Assembly (NCBI GenBank): GCA_015075075.1
Contig: JABTVA010000004.1
Coordinates: 1-64,000, forward strand
Length of the DNA: 64,000 nucleotides
Direction: 5' to 3'
From: Deltaproteobacteria bacterium
GTDB taxonomy: Bacteria; Desulfobacterota; GWC2-55-46
The notes under the pieces were generated by a model. That model was not told where the DNA came from. It searched no databases and saw only the letters and a list, made by a program, of their open reading frames with translations. The position numbers and the translations under genes are program-made. This document shows, in pieces, positions 12,028 through 52,175 of this stretch (the stretch's first letter is position 1; each line of letters starts with the position of its first letter).

Positions 12028-13779
12028 ATGTCCATTGCGGCAGCATCGAACATATTGGAGGACCTCGCATCCAGGTTCGGCGAAGGCGCGGTTACGCCAG
12101 AGCCCACTCTCGACAGCGTGCCGACCTTCTGGACGCCGAAGGAGAATGTGCTGGAGGTGCTGGAATTCCTTAAAACCGGCGTCGAGGGGCCGTACAGGAT
12201 GCTCTACGACCTCACGGCCATCGATGAGCGCACCCGCCGGAAGCGCCAGGACCAGCCCGGGAGCGATTTTACGGTCGTCTACCACCTCCTCTCCTTCGAC
12301 CGGAACGAGGACCTGAGGATAAAGGTGGCGCTAAAGGGGGAAAGCCCCTCCATACCGTCGGCGACCGGCGTGTGGAGCTCGGCCAACTGGTACGAACGGG
12401 AGCTGTGGGACATGTTCGGCGTCCGGGCAGACGGGCACCCGAACCTCCGGCGCATACTCATGCCGCAGTCCTGGGAAGGGCACCCGCTCAGGAAGGACCA
12501 CCCGGCGCGGAGGACGGAGATGGAAAGGTACACCCTCCCGCTCGAGAAGGAGGTCAGGGAGGAGACGGCGCTCAGGTTCGTCCCCAGGGAATGGGGGATA
12601 TACAGGACCGAGGGGAACGGGACCGAGTTCATGTTCCTCAACATGGGCCCGCACCACCCGGGCACCCACGGGATATTCCGCATCATACTCGAGCTCGACG
12701 GCGAGGAGATAGTGAACGCCTTCCCGGACATCGGCTACCACCACCGCGGGGCCGAGAAGATGGGGGAGAGGCAGACCTGGCACACCTACATACCGTATAC
12801 CGACAGGATTGACTACCTGGCAGGGCCGCTCAACAACTTCCCGTACGTGCTCGCCGTCGAGAGGCTCGCGGGCATAGAGGTGCCCGAAAGGGCCAGGGTC
12901 GCCCGCGTGATGTTCGCGGAGCTATTCCGCATCGCGAGCCATCTCGTCTGGTACGGCACGTTCGCGCAGGACCTGGGGCAGCTCACCCCCGTGTTCCTCA
13001 CCTTTAACGACAGGGAGCGCGCCTACTCCATAATAGAGGCGGTCTCCGGCTTCCGCATGCACCCGGCCTGGTTCAGGATAGGCGGCGTTCAATCCGACCT
13101 GCCCAAAGGATGGGAAAAGCTCGTAAAGGATTTCATCGAGTACCTGCCGCCGAGGCTCATGGAATACGAGAAGCTCGTGATGGATAACGCCATAGTGAAG
13201 GCGCGCACAAGGGGCATAGGCACGCTCACCCTCGACCAGGCCATTGACTGGGGAGTGACGGGCCCGAACCTCCGCGCGTGCGGTATCGAGTGGGACTTCC
13301 GGAAGAAACGCCCCTATTCGGGCTATGACCGGTTCGAGTTCGACATACCTACCGCCGGGGAAGGCGACAGCTACGCGAGGGCTCTGGTAAGGGTAGAGGA
13401 GATGCGCCAGAGCCTGAGGATAATCGAGCAGTGCCTCGATAACATGCCCTCCGGGCCGTATAAGAGCGACCACCCGCTCGCCACCCCGCCGAGAAAGGAG
13501 AGGACCATGCGGGACATGGAGACCCTCATAGCCATTCTTTCGGTGCTGGGGCCTGTCGTCCCGGCAGGGGAGGCCGCCGTAGGCACCGAGGCCGCGAAGG
13601 GGAACAACACCTATTACCTCGTAAGCGACGGGGACGCCTCCTCCTACAGGACCCGCATACGAACCCCTTCGTTCCCGCACCTCCAGGCGCTCCCCCTCAT
13701 GTGCAAGGGCTTCGAGATAGCCGACCACATCGCCATAATGGGGAGCATCGATTTCGTGATGGGCGACGTGGACCGCTAA
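12028..13779 (+). CDS. nuoCD: Fused NADH-quinone oxidoreductase subunits C and D
   Basis: 583 residues. Residues 1-190 are the 30-kDa subunit C ([35 protein letters not shown]). From about residue 200 the 49-kDa subunit D follows: [11 protein letters not shown], then [20 protein letters not shown] and the C-terminal [12 protein letters not shown]. Subunit D forms the quinone cavity with NuoB. Fusion of C and D is known in enterobacteria and several other groups. Start: ATG at 12028 with a weak CGGAG upstream. GTG of nuoE follows after 10 nt. Confidence 0.95.
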
Positions 13780-46554: not shown

Positions 46555-46652
46555 TCCCCTCCCCATGATTTAATCAGGCGGGAGGGGATTAGGTGGAGGG
46601 TGGAGATCTTCACCCCCTCCCGGCCTCCCCCATCAAGGGGGAGGGGTCAATA
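46555..46652. repeat. CT/AG-rich palindromic repeat fragment
   Basis: CCCTCCCC...GGGAGGGG and CTCCCCC...GGGGGAGGGG arms between the ferredoxin and the FG-GAP gene. Similar CCCTCCCC...GGGGAGG arms are seen at about 52231-52261. No coding potential. Confidence 0.5.
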
Positions 46653-46724
46653 AGAAGCGCGGTAAGCCACGGGTATCAGACCCTAAAAGAGAATAAAACC
46701 TTTGAGCAAGGCAGGTCTTCTGGA

Positions 46725-48365
46725 ATGAAATCAGCGATAAAGCTAACGGCACTATTTCTATTCATTATTTTGACGCTAACGGCCCCCTTCCGGGCCGAAG
46801 CGGCCTCGGAAGAGAAGAAGATCGCGATACTCCCCTGGAACGTGAACTCGGCGGAGAAGATGGATTTCGTGAAGGGGGCGATGGCCGACATGCTCGCCTC
46901 AAGGCTCGGTGGCTCCCTCGTAATCGTGCGGCATGACCTGGTGAAGGCCGCCATCCCGGGGAATAAGGGCATCGAGGAGGGCGCGGCGCTTGAGGCCGGG
47001 AAAAAGCTCAACGCCGACCTCGTGCTTTTCGGCAGCGTCACCGTCTTCGGGAAGTCCGTGAGCATGGACGCGAAGCTACTTGATGTGGCAACGGGCAGGA
47101 CAACGCCTTTCGCCTCCCAGGGCACCGGGGTGGAATCCATAATAGGCCTTACGGATAAGCTCTCAACCGATGTGCTGGCTTCATTGAAGCCCAGGGCAGC
47201 GGCCCCGGCAATCGAGGAAAAGCCAGCATCGACTGCTGAAATAACGGCACCGGCAATCCCGGCGGCAATACCCGCCCCGACAGCCGAAGCCCTGCCGGAC
47301 GACGGCTTCATCGTGAAGCCCAGGGCCGGGCAGGATAGGCCCGTTTCCTGGAGGAGCGAGGCCATGGACGGCATGTACGTGGCAATGGACGCCGCAGACC
47401 TTGACCGCGACGGCAAAAAAGAGATAGTCATCGTATCAGGGACGAAAGTAGTGATAGGCGCTTACGCCGAGAACGGCTTCCGCGTGCTCCACGAGATGGA
47501 GGACAAGACCGGAACGAACATCTCGGTTTCCATAATCGACATGGACAGGGACGGCGCGCCCGAGGTCTATATATCTCGGATATCCGAGAACGAGGCCGCA
47601 AGCCTGGTAATCGAGCACAGGAACGGGAAGTATGAGGTAACGGCAGGCAACCTCGGCTGGCTCGTGCGGACGGTGCGGGCCGGCGACGCTGCCCCGGCGC
47701 TAATAGGGCAGAGGTTCAGGAAGCTCGACGGCTTTTACGGCGGCGTCAGGGTGCTTGCCAGGGAAGGCGGCAAGCTCGTGGACAAGGGAGAGTTCGGGGT
47801 GGCGCTTCCGAGGGGAGCGGACCTTTACAGGTTTGAGGCGCTTGACTTCAGGGGCAAGGGCGGGCTCGACGTCATAGCCCTGGACGGGCGCGGGTATCTT
47901 AAGGTTTACGCCGCGGAGAAAGAGGGGGAATGGGCCGAGGAATACAGGAGCGCGGACTTCTTCGGCGGCACGCTCAATTATATTGTGCGGAAGGCCGACC
48001 GCCCCGGCGCAACTGAATCCGAGCCGTTCCCTGTAGAGGGCAGGTTTTTTCATCTCGACATGGACAAGGACGGAAAGGCCGAGCTGATAGTAAAGAAGAA
48101 CACGCCCGGCGGCCTGGGGCGTAGCGCCGCGCGGCCTGCCTCATTCAAGACCGGAGAGCTTGTAAGCCTCTCGTGGGACGCGACGGGCGGGACAGTTGCC
48201 GAGAACTGGCGGACGAGGCCCGTGGAGGGCTATATATCGGATTTCCTCATCGAGGACTTTGACGGCGACGGCGCGCCCGAGGCGGTGATGCTGGTCGTCA
48301 CCGGCACGGGAAAGCTCTTCGGCACCACAAAAAGTTATATACTTTCCCACCGGATTTCATTATAA
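46725..48365 (+). CDS. Exported FG-GAP/VCBS-repeat protein with TolB/FlgO-like N domain
   Basis: 546 residues from ATG 46725; upstream in-frame codons to 46593 run through a non-coding repeat. Signal peptide (about 1-27). Residues 30-170 form an alpha/beta domain (KIAILPWNVNSAEKMDFVKGAMADML...) like those of FlgO/TolB N-terminal or CsgG-like proteins. The rest holds FG-GAP-type repeats with Asp-rich, calcium-binding-like loops: DLDRDGKKEIVI, DMDRDGAPEVYI, DMDKDGKAELIV, DFDGDGAPEAVM. A Pro/Ala linker (about 155-200) joins them. Periplasmic or surface protein; function unknown. Confidence 0.78.
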   Translation: MKSAIKLTALFLFIILTLTAPFRAEAASEEKKIAILPWNVNSAEKMDFVKGAMADMLASRLGGSLVIVRHDLVKAAIPGNKGIEEGAALEAGKKLNADLVLFGSVTVFGKSVSMDAKLLDVATGRTTPFASQGTGVESIIGLTDKLSTDVLASLKPRAAAPAIEEKPASTAEITAPAIPAAIPAPTAEALPDDGFIVKPRAGQDRPVSWRSEAMDGMYVAMDAADLDRDGKKEIVIVSGTKVVIGAYAENGFRVLHEMEDKTGTNISVSIIDMDRDGAPEVYISRISENEAASLVIEHRNGKYEVTAGNLGWLVRTVRAGDAAPALIGQRFRKLDGFYGGVRVLAREGGKLVDKGEFGVALPRGADLYRFEALDFRGKGGLDVIALDGRGYLKVYAAEKEGEWAEEYRSADFFGGTLNYIVRKADRPGATESEPFPVEGRFFHLDMDKDGKAELIVKKNTPGGLGRSAARPASFKTGELVSLSWDATGGTVAENWRTRPVEGYISDFLIEDFDGDGAPEAVMLVVTGTGKLFGTTKSYILSHRISL

Positions 48366-48410: not shown

Positions 48411-48486
48411 GGCGGTGTAGCTCAGTCGGCAGAGCAGGGGTCTCATAAGCCCCGCGTCGGTGGTTCGATTCCACCCACCGCCACCA
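48411..48486 (+). tRNA. tRNA with CAU anticodon (elongator Met; Ile2 not excluded)
   Basis: Complete cloverleaf: acceptor GGCGGTG/CACCGCC, D arm GCTC...GAGC, anticodon stem GGGGT-CTCATAA-GCCCC with CAT, T arm GGTGG-TTCGATT-CCACC, A discriminator and an encoded CCA. The anticodon stem lacks the three G:C pairs of initiator tRNA. The 3' half is duplicated 2.9 kb downstream. Confidence 0.95.
48453..48484 (+). repeat. attL-like site: 3' end of tRNA-Met
   Basis: 32 nt covering the variable region, T arm and acceptor 3' strand. It matches 51336-51367 at 30 of 32 positions, in direct orientation. tRNA 3' ends are the usual targets of tyrosine integrases. Confidence 0.7.
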
Positions 48487-48699
48487 GTTTGATTCTCAGA
48501 TCGAATCAAAACCTTCAGCTGATCACTTCTAAATAAAACCAGATTTTTAAATCCCCTTTTATCCAGATGTAATAAGCCGGGCGGTATTGGAAGAAATAGT
48601 TGACAAATTATGAAAATATTATTAATGTGTATGAAAATTTTTAAATTAGAGAAACTTTTTCAAAACTAATTTAAACCAAATAAGTTTATTTGGAGAGCG

Positions 48700-51150
48700 A
48701 TGCCGATGAGAAAAGCTATGTTATTTATTGCTCTTGCCATGCTATGGATGGTCAATCCGGATATTTCGTATTCAGATACAGTTCATGATTCGAAAACTTC
48801 AAATATCGAAACGGGTCAGGATGCCTATGCCTCACAGCAAGTTGAGATAGAAAGACTGAGACTAAATTCAAAAGCTCCGATCGATATAATACTAACGGGG
48901 ACCGGGGCGGTAAGGTATGCTGATTTTCGGGTACAAAGTCCTGCCGAAATAGGCGATGATAACCTGGCGCGTGCCCGATGGTTCTTGAATGAATATCGTA
49001 AGCTCCTCCGCATTGAAAATCCTAAGGACGAATTACGTTTTTTCCGCCGATCACCCGATGGGTTCAACTCCTTTTTCCTGCAATTCCATGATGATATTCC
49101 AGTTTTCCCATCAGAGCTCGGGGTGCATACGGATTCTAAATACATTACAGGGCTCGGCGGCAACTATGTCCCTCAGATAAAAACCAGCTCCAAACCCGCA
49201 ATTACACCGCAACAGGCCGCAGAGAAAGCTCTAATCGCGGGTGGGAAGGGGGCCGTACAGAAAGGAGAGCCTGAGCTCTGGTACATTAACCGTGGTATTC
49301 TGGGGCTTGAGGATGACGCGACATATCTTGCATGGAGAATTGAGATATCCGCACCAAAAGGGAGCAAGGCGCTCTATATCGATGCGCATAATGGCACTAC
49401 AGTCTATACGGAGAATCTTTCACCTAAAGCTTTTGATTTAATGCTCAGCAACGCAAATACAACCGGACCATGTGATGCCGATAGTTCTTATTGGCTTAAT
49501 GAAAACAGGGATATTCTTGTAGCTGACGAGAATGGCCCCAATGGCAGCAGTAATGACGAGGGAAGACGCGCTTTTCATAATATTCAAAGGGTCTATAATT
49601 ATTGGAATCAAGAGCTCGGACGTGATTCATTTGATGCCTGCGGTCGTAACATCGAAATGTACATCAATGCCGGGAATTCATCTCTGCCCTGGTTCGATAT
49701 ACCCTGGTTAAATTTCCCCTGGTTCAATGCGCAGTTCAATCCAGGCTGCGGCGAGATATTCGAGTTCGGAAGCGGGATGGCCTTGCTTGATATCATTGGG
49801 CATGAGTTTACCCATGGCGTCATAAATAATGCAAGGGAAAATGACAGAGGACAATATAAAAGGGTACTGCACTATGAGCTCGAGAGTGGTGCCCTTAATG
49901 AAAGTTATGCGGATATTTTCGCTTATTTCGTCGATAATGATGATTGGTGGATAGGTGATGAGTACACCTTTACGGGGATTGGAAGAAGGTCATTAAGCGA
50001 TCCTCGTTTAGGCATGCAGCCAGACCACATGGGCAATTTTTGGCGCCTGCCAGTCGGAGAGCTCCCCGGCGATGACAACGACCATGGATATGTTCACATA
50101 AACAGCGGTATCCATAATAAAGCCGCTTACCTTATAATAAACGGAGGCACTCATAACGGTTTAAATATCATTGGTATCGGCCAGAGCAAAGCACAGCGCC
50201 TATTCTATCAAGTGCTGGTCAGGGGGTTGACATTAAACTCGCAATTCTTGGATGCAAAACTTGAGACCATACGGCAGGCCAGCATTCTTATATCCTCGCC
50301 TGAGCCGATGCCTCTTAGTTATAAGTGCGGCGATACCGTTAGAACAAGTACCATCCCCGCAACAGACCGGTTTACATTGTCGGATGTCTGTAACATCCAT
50401 AAAGCCTTTGCTTCTGTCGGGATTGGAAGCGAAGTTGCTTGCGTGGACAACGACAAGGATGGCCATTTGGACGATTTTGACAACTGCCCCGAAATACCGA
50501 ATAGCGACCAGACCGATTCTGATAATGACGGGTTCGGAAACGCTTGCGACAGGTGCCCGTACATCCCCGGAAACCCGCCTGAGGATACTGACAAGGACGG
50601 CCGGGCTGATTCGTGTGATAATTGTGTTGATAAAGCGAATCCTTCTCAAGAAGATACGGACGGAGATCGTCGTGGGAACGCATGTGACAATTGTCCTACT
50701 GTATATAACTGGTATAACGGCAAAGGTCAAGACGACGCAGATGGAGACGGTATTGGAGATTACTGCGACAACTGTAAATCTGTCGCGAACCCCGATCAAA
50801 TGGATATGCCCGACCGTGACGGACTTGGCAACGCCTGCGACACGGATTGGGATAATGACGGCAAAAAGAATGACGAAGATAACTGCCCGTTGGTGGCAAA
50901 TCCTGCGCAGGAAGATACAGATGGCGACGAGATAGGAAACGCTTGCGATAATTGCCCATTGGTACCGAATAACGATCAGAAAGATCTTGACTGCAATGGG
51001 ATCGGGGATGCCTGTGACAGCTTTCCAAATCCGTTCGCTTCCTGTACCGGGAGAGAGCTGCCTGCCGCGATTGATAAAAGGCCAGAGTTCCTTCAAAAAA
51101 TAGAGTGGCCAAAATGGATAATTAGACTCTGGGAGAAGGTTTGGAGGTAA
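48700..51150 (+). CDS. Secreted M4-family metallopeptidase (thermolysin type) with thrombospondin type 3 repeats
   Basis: 816 residues. Signal peptide (about 1-25), FTP-type propeptide (to about 220), then the M4 catalytic domain: HEFTH at 368-372, the third zinc ligand E401 in NESYADIF, and the transition-state His in YVHINSGIHNKA. From about residue 575 to 780 come Asp/Asn/Cys-rich calcium-binding TSP3 repeats (DNDKDGHLDDFDNCPE, DTDKDGRADSCDNC and so on), then a Trp-rich tail. GGAGAGCG precedes the ATG; TTGACA lies at 48600. Its codon use and leader are far more AT-rich than all neighbours, and tRNA-like repeats flank it, which indicates horizontal acquisition. No immunity or export gene is attached. 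Confidence 0.93.
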   Translation: MPMRKAMLFIALAMLWMVNPDISYSDTVHDSKTSNIETGQDAYASQQVEIERLRLNSKAPIDIILTGTGAVRYADFRVQSPAEIGDDNLARARWFLNEYRKLLRIENPKDELRFFRRSPDGFNSFFLQFHDDIPVFPSELGVHTDSKYITGLGGNYVPQIKTSSKPAITPQQAAEKALIAGGKGAVQKGEPELWYINRGILGLEDDATYLAWRIEISAPKGSKALYIDAHNGTTVYTENLSPKAFDLMLSNANTTGPCDADSSYWLNENRDILVADENGPNGSSNDEGRRAFHNIQRVYNYWNQELGRDSFDACGRNIEMYINAGNSSLPWFDIPWLNFPWFNAQFNPGCGEIFEFGSGMALLDIIGHEFTHGVINNARENDRGQYKRVLHYELESGALNESYADIFAYFVDNDDWWIGDEYTFTGIGRRSLSDPRLGMQPDHMGNFWRLPVGELPGDDNDHGYVHINSGIHNKAAYLIINGGTHNGLNIIGIGQSKAQRLFYQVLVRGLTLNSQFLDAKLETIRQASILISSPEPMPLSYKCGDTVRTSTIPATDRFTLSDVCNIHKAFASVGIGSEVACVDNDKDGHLDDFDNCPEIPNSDQTDSDNDGFGNACDRCPYIPGNPPEDTDKDGRADSCDNCVDKANPSQEDTDGDRRGNACDNCPTVYNWYNGKGQDDADGDGIGDYCDNCKSVANPDQMDMPDRDGLGNACDTDWDNDGKKNDEDNCPLVANPAQEDTDGDEIGNACDNCPLVPNNDQKDLDCNGIGDACDSFPNPFASCTGRELPAAIDKRPEFLQKIEWPKWIIRLWEKVWR

Positions 51151-51566
51151 ATGATTCTTATAGAATGAGCTCTTACGGCCACTTTCTAAAAAACAGCGGC
51201 CCGACAGGCCTGCCTTTGTTAATGACCCATTTAGATTTCCCCATCTCACCCCAAGTGCCTTATCCTTGGATAAAAGCATGGCAACTTTCATCTATTTTTG
51301 AGATAAACTGGAAAAAATATTATGTTAAAAGGGCTCGCGTCGGTGGTTCTATTTCACCCACCGCCACGAAGTTTTCCCCTTAGAAACGTTCCTTATCCTA
51401 AGAGATCCCTTTTTGCCTGCACAAAGACCAACTCTATAATACCCTCGATAAAAATCAAAACATGACAAAAGGCATGTTTCAGGCCCTTGTTGGGGCGTAT
51501 ATTTCCAGAATAGCCTGATAAGGCCGCATACTACTATTTTAATTTTTTACCCTACCGGAGGAGGGC
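51151..51566. other. Right flank of the tRNA-adjacent island, 416 bp
   Basis: AT-rich up to about 51335, then the tRNA-derived repeat, then about 200 bp up to the cyclophilin gene. An 80-codon open frame (51141-51383) runs through the tRNA fragment and overlaps the peptidase end; it is not credible as a gene. No integrase remnant seen. Confidence 0.5.
51336..51367 (+). repeat. attR-like site: displaced copy of the tRNA-Met 3' end
   Basis: Differs from 48453-48484 at two positions (G to T in the T loop; C to T in the T stem, which still allows a G:U pair). Immediately preceded by GGGCT, also close to the tRNA's AGCCC. No 5' half of a tRNA is present, so it cannot be an active gene. Confidence 0.75.
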
Positions 51567-52175
51567 ATGAAAGGACGCATCGCATTATTTTTTCTACTGT
51601 TTTTTACGCTGGCTGTGCCGTTCCTGGCAATCGCGGAAGAAGGGGCGGGGGATTCAAAAAGGGAAAAAAGGGCTATAATCGAGACGGCTTACGGCAATCT
51701 CGAGATACGGCTATTCCCCGATATAGCGCCGAAGCACGTCGAAAACTTCGTAAGGCTCGCGAAAGAGGGCTTCTATGACGGCACGATCTTCCACGAGGCC
51801 GTGCCGGGATTCAAGATCCAGGGTGGTGACCCTTACACCAAGGCCAACTCCGGGAAATATACCGGTTGCTGCCCGAGAAAGAGCAGGTACGGCCTGACCA
51901 TCCTGCCCTGGACAGTGCCCGCAGAGTTCAGCAGGATCCCCCACAAGCGGGGCATCGTCTCAATGGCGAGGTTCGAGGATGACCCGGACAGCGCAAGCTC
52001 CCAGTTTTTCATAGTGCTAAAGGACTCCGGTTCGCTTGACGGCAAATACACCGTATTCGGCGAGGTCGCAAGCGGCATGGAAGTGGCCGACAGGATTGCA
52101 GCTCTTCCTAAAGACGAAGACTATCCGAACCTTCCTGAAGAGCGGGTCGAAATGAAGGTGCGAATATTGGAGTGA
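51567..52175 (+). CDS. Exported cyclophilin-type PPIase with altered catalytic residues
   Basis: 202 residues with a signal peptide (about 1-23). The cyclophilin fold is clear: IETAYGNLEIRLFPDIAPKHVENFVRLAKEGFYDGTIFH, QGGDP, SSQFFIVL, LDGKYTVFGEV. The catalytic Arg of FHR is Glu here (FHEAVPGF), and the His of LDGKH is Tyr. A Cys pair (GCCPRKSR) lies in an insertion before the conserved MA motif. Probably a periplasmic chaperone or a weak isomerase. ACCGGAGGAGG precedes the ATG. Confidence 0.88.
   Translation: MKGRIALFFLLFFTLAVPFLAIAEEGAGDSKREKRAIIETAYGNLEIRLFPDIAPKHVENFVRLAKEGFYDGTIFHEAVPGFKIQGGDPYTKANSGKYTGCCPRKSRYGLTILPWTVPAEFSRIPHKRGIVSMARFEDDPDSASSQFFIVLKDSGSLDGKYTVFGEVASGMEVADRIAALPKDEDYPNLPEERVEMKVRILE

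Follow-up and report, generated by a model that had tools for sequence, protein, structure and literature searches.

A single protease gene at tRNA-Met as the probable remnant of an integrative element at an integration hotspot of Deltaproteobacteria

How did a single secreted protease gene come to lie between an intact tRNA gene and a second copy of that gene's 3' end? The question is raised by a locus in a 64,000-nucleotide stretch of DNA (the window) from a Deltaproteobacteria genome, G000, a 2.6-Mb assembly of 39 contigs that is 93% complete. In another collection, the named records that belong to this family are MAGs of Deltaproteobacteria, many of which come from groundwater. The initial annotation proposed an island integrated at a tRNA attachment site and devoid of an integrase, being either a remnant or a minimal cargo moved in trans.

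All features of the locus are on the forward strand. The tRNA-Met gene (CAT; 48411–48486) is intact according to ARAGORN, and the hotspot described below uses the 3' half of this gene, beginning at the anticodon loop, as its attachment site. The 3' end of the tRNA gene is directly repeated: the proximal copy, corresponding to tRNA positions 43–74, occupies 48453–48484, and the distal copy at 51336–51367 is identical to it in 30 of 32 nucleotides. The 2,849 bp between tRNA-Met and the distal repeat contain one credible gene, that of an M4 peptidase (48700–51150), preceded by an AT-rich leader (48487–48699) with neither an integrase remnant nor a known element arm. The first 10 bp of this leader (GTTTGATTCT, 48487–48496) are the same in the sister species G002, and the sequences diverge beyond them. 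Past the distal repeat lies the original chromosomal flank of the tRNA (51368–51566), conserved in three congeneric genomes (G002, G004, and G005) past their last 3'-end copy, and then the gene of a cyclophilin-type peptidyl-prolyl isomerase (51567–52175), the constant downstream neighbor in the four closest species. On the other side, the gene of an FG-GAP repeat protein (46593–48365) is the constant upstream neighbor of tRNA-Met across the order. Promoter-like sites in the region do not exceed the chance level.

The 32-nt repeat around a one-gene segment of 2.85 kb, as originally described, is confirmed by the coordinates, by ARAGORN, and by the alignment score of the distal repeat against tRNA-Met, which is 56 compared to at most 31 in 500 shuffles. 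One could assume that the repeat is due to chance, or is the decayed rest of a second tRNA gene that all relatives inherited, with no insertion involved, since the T-arms of tRNA genes are alike. However, the 30/32 identity is specific to tRNA-Met, the sequence upstream of the distal repeat bears no resemblance to the tRNA 5' half (score 8, p = 0.996), and no second tRNA is called there by ARAGORN. Given the repeat score above all shuffles and this lack of 5'-half similarity, the distal repeat is a displaced fragment of the 3' end rather than the decayed remains of a complete tRNA gene. Moreover, full copies in related genomes all start at one point (tRNA positions 30–32, in the anticodon loop), are separated from the tRNA by 0.6 to 47 kb, and enclose differing content. 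An origin without insertion is thus extremely improbable, and the locus has an intact tRNA at one end and a partial copy of its 3' end in the same orientation at the other, as is characteristic of tRNA islands.

M4 peptidases, which include thermolysin and bacillolysin, have an HExxH...E active site and two thermolysin domains. The 816-aa window protein likewise has both domains, Peptidase_M4 (5e-11) and Peptidase_M4_C (1.5e-29), above the Pfam cut-off, and the active-site motifs HEFTH at residue 368 and, downstream, ESYAD at residue 401; in addition, it contains a run of TSP3 (thrombospondin type 3) calcium-binding repeats (TSP_3, 6e-29). An N-terminal signal sequence, as read from the protein sequence, predicts secretion, and the gene is intact. 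This agrees with its first identification as a secreted thermolysin-type protease with TSP3 repeats. Nothing close to this protein was found: matches are weak in 59 related genomes, do not exceed 39% identity in 395 genomes of the phylum (the best one covering the catalytic part), and are all below 36% among the listed plasmids, and no relatives were found in viral contigs. The gene is absent from all five congeners, including G002, whose genome is a single contig, and no relative has it at this place.

The segment is also foreign in composition. Compared with a baseline of about 454 kb of genome contigs, its GC content is 45.5% versus a mean of 58.5% (sd 2.5%), which falls in the lowest 0.3% of 1,783 windows of equal size; the leader region (48500–48999) has 37% GC. 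By codon usage the M4 gene is the fifth most deviant among 287 ORFs, of which several other extreme ones resemble spurious frames, and its GC3 is 48% versus a mean of 76%. Thus, the comparison of GC content and codon usage proposed in the initial annotation bears out the AT-richness of both leader and coding sequence noted there. Foreign composition and the lack of the gene at this locus in close relatives together are what is expected of an island. A second AT-rich stretch of 44–46% GC, with a gene of 41% GC, is found on the same contig outside the window (G000:C34, about 119000–123000; L111).

The same tRNA site is variably filled in related genomes. In four congeneric species (G000, G002, G004, and G005) the cyclophilin flank is common and starts right after the last 3'-end copy, and between the same two flanks we observe four different contents: (i) the M4 protease gene in the window; (ii) in G002, which is about 94% identical at the nucleotide level upstream of tRNA-Met, an ORF of 111 aa followed by a degraded copy of the tRNA 3' end (positions 30–76) and, beyond it, by a candidate defence gene (PIN/GNAT) along with other ORFs; (iii) in G004, a toxin-antitoxin pair; and (iv) in G005, a 20.6-kb island with an integrase, a primase, a type I restriction-modification (R-M) system, and a Cas12b CRISPR system; the repeat at the two ends of this island covers tRNA positions 32–76 and is perfect over its 45 bp (45/45). 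More distant relatives have segments of 2.3, 12.7, and 47 kb at tRNA-Met. Overall, copies of the tRNA-Met 3' end on the same strand and contig occur in 7 of 30 family genomes. From these comparisons, tRNA-Met in the relatives is evidently an integration hotspot. The Gp49/HI1420-type toxin-antitoxin pair of G004 (L010:4825–5486) adjoins tRNA-Met in a second genus as well (G024, L046:15185–15846).

No empty site was observed in the four genomes with the same flanks or in any other genome examined. Flank divergence within the four-species clade is 6–20%, and over such divergence a functionless displaced copy of 45 bp should mutate; hence, the perfect copy in G005 points to a recent insertion, before which the site in this lineage would have been empty. 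The suggested comparison of the locus in relatives therefore yielded varying content between constant flanks and not the empty site with a single intact tRNA 3' end that would prove insertion. Neither of the two findings named in advance as contradicting insertion was made, as no relative has the M4 gene here and the distal repeat is not a decayed tRNA gene.

Elements at this site differ in their state of preservation. The stretch before the distal copy is conserved in G005, G032, and G036, recognizable in G007 and G018, and decayed in G002. In the last genome, the distal arm of the element persists in degraded form within a segment of 0.7 kb, so that decay at the tRNA-Met site is demonstrable. 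A second distal copy in G002 (L009, about 12122–12142) is in the expected place but scores only 28, while about 1,000 other windows reach scores of up to 26; it was not counted as proven.

An intact tyrosine integrase converges on tRNA-Met in G005 and G007. Integrases of the same clade, 67–86% identical, also lie beside tRNA-Met in G018 and, as fragments, in G020, G028, and G030, and in G008 the last 24 residues of such a protein survive. The wider integrase family (loci L067–L096), with 38–58% identity, mostly faces tRNA-Pro, Asn, Ala, Leu, and Glu/Lys at a stereotyped distance; because these relatives are mostly at other tRNAs, the clade at tRNA-Met is distinct. Past the distal repeat of the 47-kb island in G007, there is a fragment of a second integrase of this clade (L015:13844–14206), which points to an earlier insertion in tandem. 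The clade has no member in the window or in the rest of the 93%-complete G000 genome, which encodes only three PF00589 proteins, the one beside a tRNA being at tRNA-Glu/Lys. Thus, an integrase targeting this tRNA, which the initial annotation recommended seeking elsewhere, exists in relatives and was not found in the window's own genome. Its central proposal, an island at a tRNA attachment site without an integrase, is upheld: the same tRNA is variably filled in relatives, in some of them by integrase-bearing elements with a perfect repeat, and the M4 gene is missing in congeners.

What kind of island is it? The window segment contains neither an integrase nor an integrase fragment and so is not an autonomous element. 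Of the known element arms, the proximal one has no significant match in it, and the best match of the distal one, to one relative, has p = 0.05. The distal repeat covers tRNA positions 43–74 only and lacks the part in the anticodon loop where full copies begin. The likely reading is that the segment is a stripped, integrase-less remnant of an integrative element at tRNA-Met, which is probably immobile. Since it has no recognizable arms and no integrase remnant, it is tied to the tRNA-Met integrase clade by position only. We infer that an integrase of this clade placed it and that the M4 gene arrived with the element, not in a later event.

Of the two options left by the initial annotation, the remnant is the better supported one, because the distal repeat has no anticodon-loop part, the arms are not recognizable, and the genome has no integrase of the clade. 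By the same observations, it is very unlikely that the segment represents a minimal non-autonomous element whose movement in trans, ongoing or recent, is due to the integrase of another element at the same tRNA. Such movement would be consistent with the state of other segments: five of the seven bounded segments contained in one contig have no relative of the integrase, the same toxin-antitoxin pair adjoins tRNA-Met in two genera, and the 2.3-kb segment of G036 consists of both arms, a nearly complete repeat, and a Fic gene, with no integrase. For movement of a cassette in trans, this segment is the best candidate; however, internal deletion explains cases like G036 equally well. It also seems doubtful, to a similar degree, that the small integrase-less segments (with the M4 gene here, the toxin-antitoxin pair in G004, and the Fic gene in G036) constitute a class of minimal cassettes that a single clade of tRNA-Met integrases disperses in trans, and are not what is left of larger islands.

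Another scenario retains the insertion and separates it from the protease: the repeats would stem from an older insertion, and the M4 gene would have entered the decayed remnant by homologous or illegitimate recombination, independently of an integrase. The three integrase-less species share traces of the tRNA-proximal flank, about 60 bp right after the tRNA in G002 and G004 and 10 bp in G000 and G002, so the remnant may predate the species split; furthermore, the window segment contains no arm sequence although one is kept in G002. Nevertheless, neither a recombination boundary nor a transposase was found around the M4 gene, and the simplest history involves a single gain, at a site where repeated acquisition of DNA has been shown. 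We consider later entry of the gene unlikely.

For the remnant of an integrative element, the following history can be suggested. The element would have inserted into the 3' half of the tRNA-Met gene, supplying its own copy of the 3' end, so that the tRNA gene stayed whole. The original 3' end, along with the former downstream flank and the cyclophilin gene behind it, would have been displaced to the far side. Subsequent deletion may have eliminated the arms and the integrase, as well as that part of the displaced copy which corresponds to the anticodon loop, so that the foreign protease gene alone remained.

This kind of locus is already known, and the protease-bearing remnant is an additional case. 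In the literature on ICEs and IMEs, attachment-site copies without an integrase and tandem decay at one tRNA belong to the picture of accretion and cis-mobilizable elements, or CIMEs (PMC5704250, citing Pavlovic 2004 and Bellanger 2011). The window segment resembles a CIME in having foreign DNA between two attachment-site copies at a tRNA 3' end, with no integrase or transfer genes, and decayed tandem elements at one site are suggested in G002 and G007. However, a CIME keeps both attachment sites, attL and attR, including the crossover region, whereas the distal copy in the window lacks the part where full copies begin; the segment has probably passed the CIME stage. In Dehalococcoides, the 3' end of one RNA gene, ssrA, is likewise reused repeatedly, about half of the islands (15/31) lack the integration module, and the cargo varies by strain (PMC3146451); there the target is tmRNA and the enzyme a serine recombinase, in contrast to tRNA-Met and a tyrosine integrase here. 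At the tRNA hot spots of Sinorhizobium meliloti, the integrase clade matches the tRNA used and the repeats at the 3' end are about 46–49 bp (PMC11476347). Both features are similar to those observed here, although the organisms are different and the window segment has no integrase.

The data document a family-wide hotspot of integration at tRNA-Met in groundwater Deltaproteobacteria, a little-studied group. Its occupants form a series: at one end is an island that appears intact, with an integrase, Cas12b CRISPR, and type I restriction; stripped segments come next, and relics of a single gene are at the other end. Acquisition of one gene is thus traceable to a mobile-element site even once the element is gone.

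The G005 island, which spans L011:4790–20000 and L012:1–5390, encodes Cas12b (a 1489-aa ORF) and a Cas4-Cas1 fusion and has an array with about 15 copies of a 36-nt repeat. It also encodes the integrase, a D5-type primase, and the type I R-M system, which includes a YhcG-like protein. It is thus a tRNA island that bears both an integrase and a type V-B CRISPR system. One spacer of the array (L011:5644–5676) matches contig C1 of the window's own genome (L052:11661–11693) in 28 of 29 nt, the latter being the BLAST span, with no TTN PAM evident; the match adjoins an integrase-bearing phage-like region near tRNA-Glu/Lys.
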